Origin: an uncultured Maribacter sp.
GTDB taxonomy: Bacteria > Bacteroidota > Bacteroidia > Flavobacteriales > Flavobacteriaceae
DNA length: 49,949 bases
Reading direction: 5' to 3'
Assembly (NCBI GenBank): GCA_937125035.1
Contig: CAKZLG010000277.1
Location: forward strand, 1-49,949
The translations under genes were made by a program, and so were the position numbers. Positions 22,017-30,855 of the stretch are shown here, in pieces. Position 1 is the stretch's first letter. Each line of letters starts with the position of its first letter. The notes under the pieces were generated by a model. The model worked only from the letters and a program-made list of their open reading frames with translations. It was not told where the DNA came from and did not search any database.

Positions 22017-22066
22017 CATAATTTTTGTGCAATTTTGTTGAAGATTTCTTAAAACAAAACGTATTG

Positions 22067-22504
22067 ATGAAGCACCTTCCCAAGCTATTCCTATTGCTGT
22101 TTTTATGCGCTTGCGAAACGGATAGAACCAATAGAAATCCGTATCTACAGGAGATTGGGTTCCGGTTTGACATCAACCTTAATCTACCCTTGTACAGCCC
22201 TTTGACCAATACGGGAAGTGCGGTCCCTATAGATAATCCCGGCGTGGGCACCCGAGGTGTTTTTGTGATCAATACGGGATTCAACCAATTCCGGGCCTTT
22301 GAGGCCAGTTGTCCCAACCACGAGCCCAATTCCTGTTCTACCATGGAGCTGAGCGGGCAAGTGGTCACCTGCTCCTGTGAGGACTACCAGTACAGCCTTT
22401 TTACGGGCCAAATGCTCAACCGCCCCAATGATGGCAACCGGTATTTTGATATGTTGGAATACAGGGCCAATTACAGCGGCAATATAGTGGTCATCTCCAA
22501 TTAG
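22067..22504 (+). CDS. Rieske-like lipoprotein with incomplete cluster ligands
   Basis: This 145-residue protein has a lipoprotein signal (MKHLPKLFLLLFLCAC, lipobox LCAC). The fold matches small Rieske [2Fe-2S] proteins: a Cys-His type box (ASCPNHEP) and a second box (VTCSCEDYQYSLFTGQML) about 25 residues on. True Rieske boxes are CxH and CxxH. Here the first is CPNH and the second CEDY, which has no histidine, so the usual 2-Cys 2-His ligand set is not kept. It is probably a Rieske-fold lipoprotein without a normal cluster (inference). The ATG at 22067 is chosen for the lipoprotein signal. Confidence 0.7.
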   Translation: MKHLPKLFLLLFLCACETDRTNRNPYLQEIGFRFDINLNLPLYSPLTNTGSAVPIDNPGVGTRGVFVINTGFNQFRAFEASCPNHEPNSCSTMELSGQVVTCSCEDYQYSLFTGQMLNRPNDGNRYFDMLEYRANYSGNIVVISN

Positions 22505-22505
22505 A

Positions 22506-23480
22506 TCAAAGCACCCCTAAAATGCTATCCATGACCCAACTGGTGTGCAGGGCTGATTTTCCAATGGATGGATGCTGTATCCCTCCGTTAAGGTGACGGG
22601 CCATATGGGCCACATGGTATTGTTGTACGTGCTTTGGGTGTGCTATGACCAATCGTTCCGTTCCTTTTTCCGTGATCAGTTCCAAAGGAGCCTCGTCCAA
22701 GACCGAAAAACGGATCTCCCCTTTGGAGCCCAAAATAGTGACCTCATCTTTGGGAATCCCTGCCCCAAAAATCCAACTCCCCGATCCCGTTGTACCATTC
22801 TCATGTACCCAACTGCCCGTTATGGCGTCATGGGCGGTATACAGGCCCATTTGGTTCGTGGCATGGCCAGAAGCCTTGCCTATGGGCCCCAATAGAAAAG
22901 TAAACAGGTCCAATCCATGACTGGCCAAATCATCAAAATACCCCCCGGGCGCCACCTTGGCATCCGTACGCCAGTTGTAGGCACCACTTTGGTCCGTGGG
23001 GCTGATACTTCTGCTCTTTTGCCATTGAACATGGCGTACCTCTCCTATATGATCAGCTTGTAACCACTCCCTTATTTTTAAGAACCGGGGCAGGGACCTA
23101 CGGTAATAGGCCACAAAAAGAGGGAGTTGCCGCTCCTCAAAGGCGGTGTGGATGGCCAAACTATCCGCGTAATTGGGGGCCATGGGCTTCTCCATACAAC
23201 AGGGCTTTCCCGCTTGGGCCACCATAAGCGCATATTTTTTATGGGTATCCGGTGGGGTAGCAATGTAAACCGCATCTATTTCAGGGGCCTCAATGATTTC
23301 AGAGGCGCTGTTGGTATAAAAGGGAACCCCGTGCCTAGTTGCATAATCCTTTGCCTTTTCAAGGCTTCTCCGCATAACACCATGCAGCTCAAAACCAGCG
23401 GTCATGCTATAGGGCGGGCCACTCTTTACCTCTGTGACGGCCCCACAGCCAATAATGCCCCACCGTATGGGCCTGGTCAT
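22506..23480 (-). CDS. Gfo/Idh/MocA-family oxidoreductase
   Basis: This NAD(P)-dependent dehydrogenase-like protein has a Rossmann fold at the start (RWGIIGCGAVTEVKSG), the motif AVYIATPPDTHKKYAL, and EKPMAPNYADS, in which the lysine of EKP is the usual catalytic residue. The C-terminal alpha/beta domain has GGYFDDLASHGLDLFTFLLG with a His at the expected place. Substrates of this family are mostly sugars or cyclitols, and the one here is unknown. It is the last gene after the THI5-like gene, with a gap of 75 to 129 bases. The ATG at 23480 gives the usual start; an ATG at 23534 would add a charged 18-residue extension. Confidence 0.88.
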   Translation of the reverse strand: MTRPIRWGIIGCGAVTEVKSGPPYSMTAGFELHGVMRRSLEKAKDYATRHGVPFYTNSASEIIEAPEIDAVYIATPPDTHKKYALMVAQAGKPCCMEKPMAPNYADSLAIHTAFEERQLPLFVAYYRRSLPRFLKIREWLQADHIGEVRHVQWQKSRSISPTDQSGAYNWRTDAKVAPGGYFDDLASHGLDLFTFLLGPIGKASGHATNQMGLYTAHDAITGSWVHENGTTGSGSWIFGAGIPKDEVTILGSKGEIRFSVLDEAPLELITEKGTERLVIAHPKHVQQYHVAHMARHLNGGIQHPSIGKSALHTSWVMDSILGVL

Positions 23481-23609
23481 GGATCCTACTGTTGTTGTTT
23501 TGTCCGTTTTTGGGCTTTCATTTTCCTTTTCCATGTGAGTAGTGTCTTAGGGACTCCTAATGTAGGGATTCCCTTAAAACCCAGATGAGATCCAGTCGCC
23601 CTTTTTAAA

Positions 23610-24515
23610 CTAAAGCAAGTCTCCCACCACAAGATTGGAATAGCCTAAACTACTGGTTTCCAATCCTTGCGCCCTTAACCAGTTTAGATAATCGGCAACA
23701 CCGTTTTGTTCCAACCTTCCCCAGTTCTTATCGTCTCCATAATAGGCATTGGCGAATTCCTGACTTTTCAAAAGATCGATGTCCTTATCCGCCGGGGCAA
23801 TGAAGGCCTGCAAACAATCCACGGCCAAACGGGCATCTGCCTTTACCGCCATAAAGCCACGCTTTGTGGCCCTAAGAAAGGAACGGTAGCCCTCCCGATC
23901 CAACGCAATGCGGGCTCTACTGGCCAAGAGCACAGGGGAATACCCGTAGGGAATACCGTAATCCGCCATTTTAAAAGTTCTAAGCGGTATTCCTTTGGCC
24001 TCTGCATGTACGCCCTCCCAATTCATGAAGATCCAGGTGGCATCATACTTGCCTGAGCACAGGGTCTCCCAAATGCCCAACTTTTCCGGATAGGCCCATT
24101 GTAAACTGCCGGTACCCCCGTCATTTTTCACCATTTGCGCCACAATATGGTCCTCATAACGGGCTTGGTAAGAGGCATAGGACCTATGGTCCAGATCTTT
24201 TGGGCGTTCAATGCCACTGCCTTCCAGTACGGCAATAGCGCTGACATCTTCCCTGAAAATGGCTGCCACGGCAACCGCGTCAAAAGCTTTCTGCTTGGTA
24301 CGGTAGCTCAGCACACTTTCAAAAGGGCAAAGGGCCAGATCCGCTGATCCCAGTTCCACTTTTTTTGCTGGGGTTAGGGCGTAATTGTCCCTATCTGGGG
24401 TAAGGAGCTCTACCTCCAACCCCTCTTCCGCATAAAATCCCATGGTTTTGGCCACATAAAATCCGCTATGGTTGGTGTTGGCCGTCCAATCCAGGGCCAG
24501 TGTCATTTTCTTCAT
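23610..24515 (-). CDS. THI5/NMT1-like substrate-binding protein without a signal peptide
   Basis: This 301-residue protein belongs to the NMT1/THI5 type 2 periplasmic-binding fold. It starts at MTLALDWTANTNHSGFYVA and has RSYASYQARYEDHIVAQMVKN and YGIPYGYSPVLLAS. Relatives are ThiY-type pyrimidine-binding proteins of ABC importers and the THI5 pyrimidine synthases. It has no signal peptide or lipobox, and no ABC permease or ATPase gene is near, so it is probably cytoplasmic. By eye, the positions of the yeast Lys and His active-site residues (LKAMIH) read LCPFES here, so the fungal suicide chemistry is not expected. It follows a TPP-riboswitch-controlled receptor gene by 67 bases, so a thiamine-related role is likely. 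Confidence 0.8.
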   Translation of the reverse strand: MKKMTLALDWTANTNHSGFYVAKTMGFYAEEGLEVELLTPDRDNYALTPAKKVELGSADLALCPFESVLSYRTKQKAFDAVAVAAIFREDVSAIAVLEGSGIERPKDLDHRSYASYQARYEDHIVAQMVKNDGGTGSLQWAYPEKLGIWETLCSGKYDATWIFMNWEGVHAEAKGIPLRTFKMADYGIPYGYSPVLLASRARIALDREGYRSFLRATKRGFMAVKADARLAVDCLQAFIAPADKDIDLLKSQEFANAYYGDDKNWGRLEQNGVADYLNWLRAQGLETSSLGYSNLVVGDLL

Positions 24516-24582
24516 CTACTTCCTTTTAGTTTTTTTAAATCCGATAAACTACTGTAGCTGCGATCGGCGCTACTATGGCCCA

Positions 24583-26847
24583 TTAAAAATTGACCGTGGC
24601 CCCCACCAAAAAATTGATGCCCGCTTGTGGGTAATACCCTGCACCTTCCACCGTGGTGACTGTTCCTGGGGTTGTAAAATCATCGTCAAACGTGAAAAAG
24701 TAGCCGTTGGTCACCAATTTGGCATCAAATACGTTGTTCACCAAACCAGAAAACACGATGCTCTTTAAAAATCCATCGCACTTCAACTCGTATTGTACAT
24801 TGAAATCTGTTTGGGAATAGGCTTCCAAAATAGAGCTTTCCGCATCTATATTGCCCATATACTGCTCCCCCACATATTTGGACAACAAGACGAACTGCCA
24901 ATTGGGTCTGGGCATGTAAGTGAGCATATTTCCAGCAATAATACTGGGGGAATAGGCAATGGTGGTATTGCCCAAATTTTGGAGGACCCCATCTCGCTGA
25001 AAGACAAAATCCTGATTTCTATTGGCACTGAAGGCGATGTTGGGGGTGATCTTAAACTGGTCTCCCAAGCTAATATTGGCATCCACTTCCAAGCCCAATC
25101 GGTAACTATCTCCCACATTGGCCCTTAGGGGAGCGCCAACATCGTTCAGTTGACCCGTGAGCACCAATTGGTTCTTATAATCCATGTAATAGATATTGGT
25201 GCTCACTTGCACCGCTGGGCTCACATAGCGCCAACCGAGCTCAATATCGTTTAGGCGTTCCGGTTCCGGGCTCCCATTTTCGTAATCGTTTCTATTGGGC
25301 TCCCTTTGGGCCACTGCATAGGAAAGATAGAAATTATTGTTCCTGTTCAAGTCAAAAGTAATACCCGCTTTGGGGTTGAAGAAATGGAACGTATCATCCA
25401 CCAGACCGGTCTCCACCCCATTGGCGGTATAGCCCACGGTCCTATACTGCAGATCGCCATACATGGACCATTGGTTGTTGAGTGCGTAATTGGCCTTGGC
25501 ATATAGGTTGAAATCGGTTTTTGTGGAGGTATCGTCATAGTACCGATCACGGTAATCCAAGGTATTGGCGAACCGTGCCCAGATGACCTCTCCAAAGTGG
25601 TCCCCCACATAGCGGTTCCAGCCCCCTCCCAGAATAACATCCAGGTTCTCTTTTTTATAATTGGCGGAGAACACGGTTCCGTAGAAATCATTGTCCAGCC
25701 AACGCCGGCGAATAAGATCCGTGGAGTTGACTTCCTCGCCATTTATACTGATGGGTGCTATGCCGTAGGTTGCAAAATCATCGTCCTCACGAAATTGTTC
25801 AAAGAAGCCCCGGCCCCGTGTGTAGTGCAAGGCGAGGTTACTGCTCCATGCTTCGGACAACTGTTCGTTCCATAACAACTGAAAATGGTCTTGTTTGTAA
25901 TTGTCCACTTCATTTTCATAGAATTGCGTATTCCCATTTTCATCGGTAAAGATGCCCGAAGGATTGAAGGTACGGTCCCTGGCCAAAGTCTCAGCGTCTA
26001 TGCCATACCATGCCTGGTAGGTAATCTCATGCCCACCGAACAATAGGGCCTTGATCAAGGTGTTATCATCTTTATAGGCCCCTTGCAAGAAGTAGGAGTC
26101 CAAATCGGACGAAGCCCTGTCAATATATCCATCTGAAGTGATACGGGACAACCTTCCGGAGATTTCCACATGGTCGTTCATAAGCCCTGTACTGAACTTT
26201 ATATTGTTCCTTAGGGTATTGAAACTGCCCAAAGAAGACGAGACCTGGGCATAGGCCTCCTCAGAGAACCCATCGGTCAATAGGTTGAGACTGGCCCCAA
26301 AGGCCCCAGCCCCGTTGGTGGAAGTGCCCACGCCCCGTTGCAGTTGCAAGCTCTCTGTGGAAGAGGCGAAATCTGGCATGTTCACCCAAAATGTACCTTG
26401 AGACTCCGCATCGTTGTACGGTATACCGTTGATGGTAACATTGACCCGCGTGGCATCACTGCCCCGAACCCTGATGCCCGTATAGCCCACCCCGGCACCC
26501 GCGTCTGAAGTGGTGACCACAGAGGGCAGAAAATTCATGAGAATGGGGATGTCCTGGCCCAAGTTTCTAGGCTGTACATCCTCTTTTGTAAGGTTGGAAA
26601 AGGTCACCGGAATGGCATTGGTGACCCTAATGGCAGAAACAAAGACCTCGTCCAAGACGACTTTGCTGCCCTCCAGACTATCAATTTCCTTATCCTGCCC
26701 AAAAAGCCCAAGGCCCAAAAAAAAGGAAAAGGTGAGCATGCCCATGGCATACCTGGGTTTTGACCAATTATGGAACGACCTCTGTTGTTGTGTAATAGAA
26801 CGGGTCCGTGCCCCGCTGCTGCGTAAGATTGAATAAAACGTTTTCAT
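24583..26847 (-). CDS. TonB-dependent receptor under TPP riboswitch control
   Basis: This 754-residue outer-membrane protein has a plug domain (IPILMNFLPSVVTTSDAG, then GIRVRGSDATRVNVTINGIPYNDAESQ) and a 22-strand barrel ending in the terminal phenylalanine (FLVGATVNF). It imports a ligand with TonB energy. The TPP riboswitch upstream (26941-27033) points to thiamine, a thiamine phosphate or a pyrimidine or thiazole precursor as the ligand (inference from regulation). The N-terminus is odd: about 34 charged residues precede a credible signal peptide (MGMLTFSFFLGLGLFGQ), so the start may be the ATG at 26745 rather than 26847. Confidence 0.9.
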   Translation of the reverse strand: MKTFYSILRSSGARTRSITQQQRSFHNWSKPRYAMGMLTFSFFLGLGLFGQDKEIDSLEGSKVVLDEVFVSAIRVTNAIPVTFSNLTKEDVQPRNLGQDIPILMNFLPSVVTTSDAGAGVGYTGIRVRGSDATRVNVTINGIPYNDAESQGTFWVNMPDFASSTESLQLQRGVGTSTNGAGAFGASLNLLTDGFSEEAYAQVSSSLGSFNTLRNNIKFSTGLMNDHVEISGRLSRITSDGYIDRASSDLDSYFLQGAYKDDNTLIKALLFGGHEITYQAWYGIDAETLARDRTFNPSGIFTDENGNTQFYENEVDNYKQDHFQLLWNEQLSEAWSSNLALHYTRGRGFFEQFREDDDFATYGIAPISINGEEVNSTDLIRRRWLDNDFYGTVFSANYKKENLDVILGGGWNRYVGDHFGEVIWARFANTLDYRDRYYDDTSTKTDFNLYAKANYALNNQWSMYGDLQYRTVGYTANGVETGLVDDTFHFFNPKAGITFDLNRNNNFYLSYAVAQREPNRNDYENGSPEPERLNDIELGWRYVSPAVQVSTNIYYMDYKNQLVLTGQLNDVGAPLRANVGDSYRLGLEVDANISLGDQFKITPNIAFSANRNQDFVFQRDGVLQNLGNTTIAYSPSIIAGNMLTYMPRPNWQFVLLSKYVGEQYMGNIDAESSILEAYSQTDFNVQYELKCDGFLKSIVFSGLVNNVFDAKLVTNGYFFTFDDDFTTPGTVTTVEGAGYYPQAGINFLVGATVNF

Positions 26848-26940
26848 CCGTAAAAAATTTTACGAATAAAAGGGGCGATTATTCTAAGTTCATCATGATT
26901 TTTGCCCAGTTAAGGACGGTGTATTCCAATAAAAGCACCG

Positions 26941-27033
26941 TTTGGCGCATCCCTTGGCGGCATTACCCGCCCAGGTTCTTTGGGTATAATCTCAGCCTGT
27001 TCTGCAACAAGCACCCCTTTGAGATGGCACAAA
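26941..27033 (-). promoter_or_regulatory. TPP riboswitch (THI box)
   Basis: On the minus strand the conserved blocks appear in order: GGGGTGC, CTGAGA (26990-26995 in complement), ACCC, GAACCTG (26972-26978), GGTAATGCC (about 26959-26967) and AGGGA. The closing stem can pair CATC/GATG and, further out, TTTG/CAAA. This is the classical thiamine pyrophosphate aptamer. Downstream, ACGGTG (complement of 26936-26941) can pair with CACCGT (complement of 26916-26921), which may be part of the expression platform. The regulated gene is the TonB-dependent receptor 94 bases downstream; no T-run is seen, so control of translation start is more likely than termination. Confidence 0.93.
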
Positions 27034-27077
27034 GTTACATTGCTTAATTAAATTAAACCGCATTTTTCAATAAAAAA

Positions 27078-27101
27078 AGGGAGCCACTTTCGTGACTCCC
27101 T
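27078..27101 (-). terminator. Terminator after the small reading frames
   Basis: GGGAG-C-CAC (27079-27087) pairs with GTG-A-CTCCC (27092-27100), TTTC loop, one mismatch. Seven A residues at 27072-27078 form the U-run for leftward transcripts. It ends whatever is transcribed leftward from 27157-27498 before the riboswitch region. Confidence 0.7.
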
Positions 27102-28162: not shown

Positions 28163-30262
28163 TTAGGCTTGGTGGGATGGCTTTAGGAGATCATTTACCG
28201 TTTTTACAGGATTGAAGGTTACCAAGGGTACTTCCACAAACAGGGTGTTCCAATGTGCCATGGCCCCATTCCACAATCCAGGAAGCTCAAGGGCCTTGAG
28301 TTCCATCCCAGCCTTGGTCTTTTCCGTAATAAAGCCTTGTTTTTCATCAACAAAACGCTGCAGATCGTATTTCATTCCGTGGTGGTCCTTCATGGCACAG
28401 ACCAAATCCACAGGGTTAAAGTGAGTGGCGTTTTTCAAAATGGCCACTTGGGCCCCATCCTCCATATTGATCTGGGCAGACTCAATGATCTGCAGGGATA
28501 CATGTCCGTTTTTGTCCTTAATAAAAAATGGGCCACCTCCGGGTTCCCCCTCATTTTTTACCATACCGCAAATTCGTATGGGCCTGTGCAGTATTTTTTG
28601 AAGTAGGGCTATTTTTCCCGGTGTATCCGAAGATTCATACGTATCTGGCAAGGCCACATTAAGGTCTTTTTCCAAGAATTGTTGCATGTGCCCCAAGGTT
28701 TCCTTTGATACCTCACCGGTTTCCAACTCCTTGAGATGTTCAAAGACCTTGGCCTGTACTCTAAGTAAGAGTCCGGCCAATACCTTTTTGCTTTGGGCCA
28801 CTTGGGTCAAATTCCGGTCAACTACCACATTGTCTATATTCTTTATAAAAATGATGTCCGCATCTTGATCGTTCAAGTTTTCAATCAATGCGCCATGTCC
28901 GCCCGGCCTAAATAGGATGCTGCCATCCGCATCCCTAAAAGGCTTGTTGTCCATATCTACGGCCAAGGTATCCGTGGCCGACTTTTGATTGGAATAGGAA
29001 ATTGAAAAGGTGGTATTGGTTTCCTCTGAGATTTTGGATACCACTTGGGCCTCTTCTTCCTTAAAAAGATCATTATGCTGTTCCGATATCGTGAAATGAA
29101 GGTTGGCCCTTCCCTTGGTCTTGGCATAAAGTGCTGCTTCTTTCAAATGCTCCTCAAAAGGGGTGGCGGCCCCTGAGGCATATCCATGAAAGGGCAAAAG
29201 CCCCTTGGGGTAAAAACCATAGTTGAGGCCGTTCTCAGTAAGCATTTCGGTCACGAAGGCATACAGCTGCTGCCCCTTGTCCATATCCTTTTTTGGCAAA
29301 CGCTGAAGCACCTTTTCATAAAATGGCAGTTTCTCCATGCCCTCTGCAAATTTTTTAAGGTCTTTGTCTTGGGTACGTTCAAAATAAGCCTCCAATGGCT
29401 CCGTATTTGGGTCGTACACCTCTAGAAAATTAAAGAGCGATTTGAACATGCGACTCGCCGCCCCAGAGGCGGGCACGAACTTTAATAGGGACAGGTTTTT
29501 GGTTTGGGCCTCAAAATAAGCGGCCAGATCTTGTTGTTCCGTTTCTGTAAATCTAGAAATGCCCTTTCCAACAATGGCTGCGTCCACCAATTGTACAAAA
29601 GGAATACCTTCCTTAAAAGTTGCTATTTGCTGTTCCACTTTGGCTTTGGTGATGCCTTTCTCGTTGAGTTGAGCTTCGTCTTTTTGGGTAAATGCTATCA
29701 TGTTGTTCCTTAATTTATCTATTGCTGAAATGGCCGTTTGAAGTCGGACTCTTTTATTCCCCTTTAAAATAATAAAATTCTTGCCATTTTGTTCTAAGGC
29801 TTCCTTAAAGTAATTGAACATTTTTTCGCGCTCGTGGGGCTTGTCTCGCAGATCGTCCGGTTCCCAAGGGGTGTCCACATAGGTAAGAAGGTACAAATCA
29901 TATGTGTTCCGTTGGGCATATTTCTCAAGTAGGGGATCACAATACCCTAAATAATAAGCTTCAGAATATACTTTGGTCTCCAGCAGATCGGTATCACAGA
30001 TCAATATGCCATTGGCTTGTTGGGCCCGTTCATTCTCCAACTTCATTTGCCCTTCGGCAATGGGCAACAGATCTTTGGGCTCACAGGTTTTTTGTTCCCG
30101 GTCCCATTTGTGCTGTAGGTACTCCCGCGCGTATTCCGGAACCCAAACAGTATTATAATGTGTTGCCAGTTGTTCGGATAGCGTGGTCTTTCCGGTGGAC
30201 TCGGGGCCAAAGAGCACTACCTTAAAGAGGTCTGTGGGCTGTTGTCTATACTTTTCTTCCAT
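28163..30262 (-). CDS. Fusion of NadR-like P-loop kinase and DUF4301
   Basis: This 699-residue protein has two parts. Residues 1-185 form a P-loop kinase like the ribosylnicotinamide kinase domain of NadR (Walker A GPESTGKTT at 19-27, VPEYAREYLQ, ICDTDLLETKVYSE, then VDTPWEPDDLRDKPHER). Residues 188-699 are DUF4301, of unknown function, with ASGAASRMFKSLF and GHGALIEN. The second part begins with its own methionine (Met188, base 29701), where separate DUF4301 proteins start. The fusion seems to come from loss of the first gene's stop. It overlaps the pnuC gene by 46 bases. A kinase beside a PnuC transporter is the known way to trap a vitamin by phosphorylation; here thiamine is possible. Confidence 0.85.
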   Translation of the reverse strand: MEEKYRQQPTDLFKVVLFGPESTGKTTLSEQLATHYNTVWVPEYAREYLQHKWDREQKTCEPKDLLPIAEGQMKLENERAQQANGILICDTDLLETKVYSEAYYLGYCDPLLEKYAQRNTYDLYLLTYVDTPWEPDDLRDKPHEREKMFNYFKEALEQNGKNFIILKGNKRVRLQTAISAIDKLRNNMIAFTQKDEAQLNEKGITKAKVEQQIATFKEGIPFVQLVDAAIVGKGISRFTETEQQDLAAYFEAQTKNLSLLKFVPASGAASRMFKSLFNFLEVYDPNTEPLEAYFERTQDKDLKKFAEGMEKLPFYEKVLQRLPKKDMDKGQQLYAFVTEMLTENGLNYGFYPKGLLPFHGYASGAATPFEEHLKEAALYAKTKGRANLHFTISEQHNDLFKEEEAQVVSKISEETNTTFSISYSNQKSATDTLAVDMDNKPFRDADGSILFRPGGHGALIENLNDQDADIIFIKNIDNVVVDRNLTQVAQSKKVLAGLLLRVQAKVFEHLKELETGEVSKETLGHMQQFLEKDLNVALPDTYESSDTPGKIALLQKILHRPIRICGMVKNEGEPGGGPFFIKDKNGHVSLQIIESAQINMEDGAQVAILKNATHFNPVDLVCAMKDHHGMKYDLQRFVDEKQGFITEKTKAGMELKALELPGLWNGAMAHWNTLFVEVPLVTFNPVKTVNDLLKPSHQA

Positions 30263-30855
30263 GCCAAATAGCCTTGAACGGCAAGAATGGTAAAGATAAG
30301 ATATTGCAAGGAAAGCATGCCCCAGCCACGGTAGGCGTATAGCGGAACTGTAATGACATCAGCAATGATCCAAAGCGTCCAATTTTCCAATTTCTTGAGG
30401 GCCATGTACCACATGGCGGTAAAAAAGATTCCAGAGGTGAATATATCCACATAATTACTGGGGTCCATGGCATGACCAAAAAAGTGGTACACCCCATAAT
30501 TCAACAGAATCGTGCCCATGAACAGCGCTACACCAACGGCTTTTTCCTTAGGAGTGGTCCTGGATATGCGCACCACCTTTTTATTGTTTTTGGTCCTAGA
30601 CCAGTTCCACCAACCATAAATGCTCATGGCAGACCAATAAAAATTCATCATCATATCCCCCAACAGGCCATCCCTATAAAAAAGATAGACCGTGATCACA
30701 GTGGCTACAAGCCCGGTTGGATAAACCAAAATGTGTTCCCGTTTGGCAAACCAAACACTGGCAATTCCGGTAACGAAGACAATGGCCTCCAATATAATGA
30801 TCGCGGTTTCCTTACCCCGGTACCCATCTAAAAAAAAATCAAAAATGGGGCTCAT
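30217..30855 (-). CDS. pnuC: PnuC-family vitamin transporter (possibly thiamine, PnuT-like)
   Basis: This 212-residue membrane protein has seven or so helices and the PnuC landmarks SVWFAKREHILVYPTGLV, NFYWSAMSIYGWWNW and LWIIADVITVPLYAYRG. PnuC proteins carry nicotinamide riboside by facilitated diffusion; the PnuT variants carry thiamine. Its overlap by 17 bases with a thiamine-binding protein gene and its place near a TPP riboswitch favour thiamine, while the NadR-like kinase downstream favours nicotinamide riboside. I cannot decide between these. No riboswitch was found upstream of this cluster. Confidence 0.88.
   Translation of the reverse strand: MSPIFDFFLDGYRGKETAIIILEAIVFVTGIASVWFAKREHILVYPTGLVATVITVYLFYRDGLLGDMMMNFYWSAMSIYGWWNWSRTKNNKKVVRISRTTPKEKAVGVALFMGTILLNYGVYHFFGHAMDPSNYVDIFTSGIFFTAMWYMALKKLENWTLWIIADVITVPLYAYRGWGMLSLQYLIFTILAVQGYLAWKKSIDNSPQTSLR

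Follow-up and report, generated by a model that had tools for sequence, protein, structure and literature searches.

In the window (the whole stretch of 49,949 nucleotides analysed here), a TonB-dependent receptor gene preceded by a TPP aptamer is followed by a gene for a THI5/NMT1-fold protein without a signal peptide, hereafter the THI5-like protein. We give about an even chance to the reading that this is a cytoplasmic binding protein for thiamine, or a thiamine phosphate, in a thiamine-import operon, the ligand and the carrier role being what we infer. The THI5-like protein is not an ordinary ABC binding protein, and a function as a pyrimidine synthase is very unlikely. In the mechanism proposed, the aptamer, which has no P1, would control translation of the receptor (OMthi), and one transcript would probably supply the THI5-like gene too. 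A former ABC thiamine-binding protein that had lost its signal peptide and transporter would now be cytoplasmic, where it would most likely bind imported thiamine or its phosphate and hold it or pass it on. Such binding would assist the inward movement of thiamine through a facilitator, for example PnuC, the putative inner-membrane route. A joint reading of switch and protein is put forward only tentatively: AAAGGGG, the 5' strand of P2 shared by the aptamer and the CCCCUUUU element, would set the hairpin over the start codon in a P1-less TPP switch, and a clade of ABC thiamine-binding proteins, its pocket rebuilt, would have become cytoplasmic, as an enzyme acting on vitamin B1 or an intracellular trap for it.

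Operon layout and gene neighbourhood

The receptor, THI5-like and Gfo/Idh/MocA oxidoreductase genes were found on the minus strand where the first-pass annotation had placed them (Table 1), with spacings of 67 and 75 bases. In the order of transcription, all on this strand, a terminator-like stem, a candidate −7 box, the aptamer, the receptor, the THI5-like gene and the oxidoreductase gene follow one another; terminator-like stems were only slightly more frequent in the region than in shuffled sequences. The position of the receptor behind a TPP aptamer is that of the OMthi type, for which transport of thiamine is predicted. A small lipoprotein-like ORF (22025-22504, plus strand) is convergent to the operon and has relatives in 15 loci. 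It gave no match in a Pfam profile search, and it carries a CPNH...CSCEDY pattern, which we take to be Rieske-like.

Table 1. Features of the operon and its upstream region in the window.
Feature	Position	Strand	Evidence or remark
Gfo/Idh/MocA oxidoreductase	22506-23534	−	PF01408 match; optional neighbour, probably outside the function
THI5/NMT1-fold protein without signal peptide	23610-24515	−	PF09084, 144.3 bits
TonB-dependent receptor, OMthi type (predicted thiamine receptor)	24583-26847	−	PF00593 and PF07715; TPP aptamer ahead in relatives and controls
Start-codon hairpin of receptor mRNA	26842-26871	−	AUG paired in predicted fold
CCCCUUUU element, possible partner of AAAGGGG	26868-26875	−	CCYCUUUU then AUUCG in 27/28 Flavobacteriaceae receptor leaders
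TPP aptamer, P2 to P5 and conserved junctions, P1 unformed	26933-27028	−	RF00059, 44.0 bits
AAAGGGG including 5' strand of P2, complementary to platform CCCCUUU	27014-27020	−	Duplex fold
AUCUC near 5' end of leader, complementary to GAGAU of aptamer core	27021-27025	−	
Candidate −7 promoter box TAACTTTG	27030-27037	−	Ends 12 nt ahead of P2 GGGG
Terminator-like stem, first in transcription order	27078-27101	−	
AAA_28 (NadR-like kinase) fused to DUF4301, common receptor neighbour	28163-30262	−	PF13521 and PF14134
PnuC-family transporter, candidate inner-membrane route	30217-30855	−	PF04973, 169 bits; sole one found in genome

The THI5-like gene was linked to the receptor in 18 of the 36 loci of its clade. 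It lies directly downstream of the receptor in 15 of them, follows the receptor, a 2OG-Fe(II) oxygenase and PnuC in L013, and is located just upstream of the receptor, with its own TPP aptamer 71-150 bases before its start, in two loci of Cyclobacteriaceae (L032 and L035). The receptor was not seen beside the gene in the other 18 loci (the L016 locus is truncated at a contig boundary), which speaks against the thiamine-binding reading. In each of the 11 further THI5-like genomes read (L093-L103; G168, G170, G173, G178 and G181 are outside this count), a TPP aptamer and receptor occur elsewhere in the genome. Near the TPP-led receptor, an AAA_28/DUF4301-type gene was found in 13 of 15 loci (L084-L096, L099 and L100), and PnuC was matched in 10 of these 15, with or without a THI5-like gene. 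Against a PnuC route for thiamine, a PnuC encoded next to a NadR-like kinase may instead transport nicotinamide riboside. The 2OG-Fe(II) oxygenase and PnuC stand right after a TPP-led receptor in L013 (6595-7971, plus strand) and L085 (5321-6597, minus strand), the latter without a THI5-like gene.

A partnership of the THI5-like protein with the downstream Gfo/Idh/MocA oxidoreductase had also been suggested. The oxidoreductase gene occurs in 12 of the 36 loci and directly follows the THI5-like gene in nine, as such a functional pair would predict; however, none was detected in the remaining 24 loci, contig ends truncating some of these, and in two controls (L087 and L092) it follows the receptor in the absence of a THI5-like gene. 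The link was dropped on these grounds, and we consider the pair improbable.

TPP aptamer and start-codon hairpin

The default covariance scan of the window detected no TPP match, because the score of the aptamer (44.0 bits over model positions 1-105, with E 3.9e-7 for the 1,001 bases searched) is below the RF00059 gathering score of 54.3 bits. Nevertheless, all the conserved core blocks (GGGGUGC, CUGAGA, ACCC, GAACCUG, UAAUGCC and AGGGA) are present, and this is the only TPP match of the genome at E 0.1. The same core was found ahead of the receptor in all 14 receptor-upstream THI5-like loci with enough flank, a count that leaves out L011 and L012, which are cut by contig ends, and at the receptor loci of all nine control genomes read (of 12) that lack the THI5-like gene. 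The first-pass annotation had named a score below the threshold as grounds against its aptamer. The score did fall short, but the comparative evidence overrides it: the aptamer was accepted because the same core precedes the receptor across relatives and control genomes. Its place ahead of the receptor, there as in the window, also agrees with the proposed control of the operon by TPP. With E of at most 0.01, a TPP match was obtained in 46 of 47 genomes, with a score above the gathering score in 17 and none above it in 30. The exception is G170, a THI5-like genome without a TPP match under stricter filters, which counts against the thiamine-binding reading.

Computation showed P1 to be unformed. 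Its best run in the window is two pairs, and P1 of at least five pairs was found in only 2 of 27 Flavobacteriaceae receptor leaders (L091 and L096). The best run in these leaders averages 2.36 pairs, compared with 2.26 when the two sides were taken from different leaders, and the bases ahead of P2 do not pair with those after AGGGA. P1 has at least five pairs in 11 of the 14 readable rows from the 17 loci of high-scoring aptamers, and five to seven pairs in all nine aptamers that have a ThiC or ThiE match no more than 2 kb away (L055-L063). In L032 and L035, P1 is six pairs in the aptamer ahead of the THI5-like gene, and three and two pairs, respectively, in that of the receptor. P5 varies on both strands between leaders, reading GCGG/CCGC in the window and ACAG/CUGU in L085. 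A TAnnTTT[G/A] box ends 12-16 nt ahead of GGGG in all 27 receptor leaders; TAnnTTTG is presumably the Bacteroidota −7 box. Crowding of P1 by the promoter was rejected as an explanation: in L055, L057, L058, L061 and L063 the box ends 14 nt before GGGG, yet P1 has five or six pairs. Because the distance between box and GGGG is equal in several P1-forming leaders, the box does not explain the loss of P1. AUCUC is a recurrent element of Flavobacteriaceae receptor leaders, its UCUC being kept in all those read.

CCYCUUUU followed by AUUCG precedes the start codon in all Flavobacteriaceae receptor leaders except that of L096, and in none of nine other loci. In all 27 leaders with this element (including L006, L014, L094 and L095), the start codon is paired in a predicted hairpin whose pairs at −3 to −7 vary on both sides between leaders, the counts leaning towards structure since the pairs were taken from predicted folds. 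The mean z of the hairpin was −4.96 (24 leaders). In the folded leaders, AAAGGGG is predicted to be able to pair with CCYCUUU, and the AAAGGGG:CCCCUUU state was predicted to lie below the aptamer-locked state in energy in all 24 leaders. Because AUG remains paired in this state in 22 of the 24, the release of the start codon is a proposal, as is the manner in which TPP may free or block the receptor start.

The THI5-like protein and its clade

The THI5-like protein matches Pfam NMT1 (PF09084) far above the cut-off of 20.5 bits. Since the codon directly ahead of its ATG is an in-frame TAG, no upstream in-frame start could add a signal. In 34 of the 35 aligned rows of the clade, taking the longest ORF gains no more than 14 residues upstream of the conserved start, at which the fold begins; the exception is L028, whose ORF could begin 29 residues earlier. 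Thus, judged from sequence, the protein lacks a signal peptide as had been claimed, none is reachable from a different start in the window gene, and the THI5-like protein is probably cytoplasmic. The claim that it has no ABC partner also held: no PF00528 permease was matched in the draft genome (92.75% complete, 360 contigs, which makes absences less sure), and the same search was positive in all 14 control genomes. An ordinary ABC binding protein with an unrecognised export route, whose permease was missed in the draft, would accord with this completeness. However, neither an export signal nor a permease partner was found, the lack of room for a signal is clade-wide, and 20 neighbours examined at nine signal-less loci include no ABC component; this alternative is therefore highly improbable.

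A scan of species genomes yielded 51 loci, 35 of which, at 42-66% identity, belong to Bacteroidota or Balneolota. The signal-less Bacteroidota/Balneolota clade comprises 36 loci and forms one side of a 100/99 tree branch, with the outside relatives on the other. These relatives (13 readable of 16) begin 27-121 residues upstream of the match, and lipoprotein or Tat-like signals were recognised by eye in these 13. Ten neighbours tested from five of their loci included a permease in four loci, an ATPase in three and Thiamine_BP in three. Thiamine_BP (PF01910), presumably the YkoF/MTH1187 family, stands beside thiamine ABC genes in L039, L041 and L049; its role is cytoplasmic. The nearest kin found for the signal-less clade are thiamine ABC binding proteins. 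In L036 (8001-8902) the THI5-like gene is broken into ORFs of 93 and 205 aa; G384, perhaps the same genome, likewise has a split copy.

The AlphaFold model of the THI5-like protein (pLDDT 95.1) gave Foldseek TM scores of 0.90 with 4NMY, 0.88 with ThiY (3IX1) and 0.75-0.82 with Thi5, and the family profile scored 183, 89 and 45 bits, respectively, 4NMY being counted as thiamin-bound on its title. DszB and a biosynthetic-pathway enzyme were also in the Foldseek list. Of the structures compared, 4NMY was the nearest. As had been noticed, the active-site residues of the fungal enzyme are lost: C63 is opposite K62, S67 is opposite H66 in one alignment (a gap makes another uncertain), and the CCCFC motif is absent from the protein and the clade alignment. 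Among the invariant positions of the clade, 16 are kept in at least 10 of 13 ABC relatives and 36 are not. The latter include many polar residues (D43, Y45, E66, D90, S92, D122 and E167) and, in our reading of the model, lie mostly at strand ends and following loops, the ligand-binding region of this fold. The clade also has a specific insertion, DxYxxTPAK. These sequence features indicate a rebuilt pocket, which may point to a new ligand or an enzyme.

Thiamine genes, alternative roles and known systems

Profile searches of the draft genome found no ThiC, ThiE or TPK and no true ThiD, the only candidate for the last being a weak PfkB-like match (44.5 bits). ThiL is a fragment at a contig edge. 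The flavobacterium looks like a full thiamine auxotroph. Among the 35 THI5-like genomes, ThiC was found in three, ThiE/TenI in 13 (11 strong), strong ThiD in seven and TPK in four; the 22 genomes without a ThiE match all lack a strong ThiD. Six isolates (L004, L007, L019, L020, L023 and L038) carry the THI5-like gene and have no ThiC, ThiE or ThiD match. The idea that the THI5-like protein stands in for a missing TPK was dropped, TPK being present in only 1 of 12 controls without the gene. ThiL was over its cut-off in 44 of the 47 genomes, while TPK was detected in five and ThiE in 20; an unrecognised thiamine kinase is therefore likely. AAA_28 is a candidate for it.

A THI5-type HMP-P synthase replacing ThiC would fit the Thi5 fold match and the absence of ThiC from 32 of the 35 genomes. 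Early on, ThiC in 3/35 contrasted with 6/12 controls, but the controls were chosen for completeness, not randomly, and the 35 genomes are not all Flavobacteriaceae. The contrast faded against the family rate of 82/397 (3/35 versus 82/389, Fisher p 0.08; 0/8 for the THI5-like genomes in that family sample versus 82/389, p 0.21). With K62 replaced, no conserved histidine near H66, no CCCFC, and neither ThiD nor ThiE found in the window genome to use the product, this reading is close to excluded. A ThiY-like protein that carries a pyrimidine precursor, HMP or FAMP, in the cytoplasm is unlikely, even though ThiY is the second-best structure and strong ThiD and ThiE occur in 7 and 11 of the 35 genomes: the profile score of 4NMY is twice that of ThiY, and 21 of the other 34 genomes, like that of the window, have no ThiE match or strong ThiD. 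HMP would be unusable in the window organism because neither enzyme was found in its draft genome, and HMP handling is unlikely as a shared role because the six isolates and most THI5-like genomes lack ThiE and ThiD. The first-pass annotation's proposal of a thiamine precursor as the ligand was accordingly set aside for this organism, the nearest solved relative binding thiamin itself.

A cytosolic enzyme on the binding-protein fold, converting an imported vitamer (damaged, phosphorylated or substituted) to thiamine or TMP, is a less likely but serious alternative. The 36 clade-specific invariants and the enzymes among the structural matches (Thi5, DszB and the biosynthetic-pathway enzyme) argue for it, whereas a known catalytic motif was not found and there is no evident substrate. 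The cysteine of CPxES was dropped as a catalytic residue since five of 35 rows have S or A in its place. The same invariants and the insertion, in pointing to a rebuilt pocket, weigh against binding of thiamine, as do the ThiC genes of three THI5-like genomes and the rarity of the gene (8 of 397 Flavobacteriaceae), which means that the majority of auxotrophs manage in its absence.

In the accessible portions of the literature searched (including PMC5613172, PMC10881298, PMC7373994, PMC9870897 and PMC2258182; most subscription journals were outside its scope), neither a THI5-like protein lacking a signal nor a TPP switch lacking P1 was found for Bacteroidota. A coastal survey, in the part available, describes several Bacteroidota populations without described B1 synthesis and transport systems (PMC10881298), and the available part of PMC5613172 calls the mode of action of TPP riboswitches in Bacteroidetes uncertain. 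An aptamer form under the Rfam cut-off, by which default scans miss the switch of the window, together with a binding protein re-used in the cytoplasm, would bear on both questions.

The Bacteroides OMthi/PnuT system likewise has a TPP-linked TonB receptor for thiamine, but its partners, in the portion of the source available, are PnuT and Tnr3 and not a THI5-like protein (PMC5613172). Compared with the TPP riboswitch of RF00059, the window leader shares the P2 to P5 core and the conserved junctions and differs in having no formed P1 and a start-codon hairpin as the platform. Thiamine_BP is also soluble and thiamine-binding, but it is a separate, unrelated protein family. Fungal THI5/NMT1, the HMP-P synthase, is alike in its fold, its lack of a signal and its link to thiamine, whereas its active-site Lys, His and CCCFC are missing here. 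ThiY, which binds formylaminopyrimidine, shares the fold and part of the N-terminal motif; however, it is an exported ABC component with a pyrimidine ligand and half the family-profile score of 4NMY. The Clostridium difficile protein 4NMY, an ABC binding protein with bound thiamin, and its relatives in Bacillota have the same fold, and the LDWTxNxNHxG motif, E121 and W166 are common to the THI5-like clade and its ABC relatives. The clade differs from the 4NMY group in having no signal and no permease or ATPase partner, and in its rebuilt pocket loops with the DxYxxTPAK insertion.
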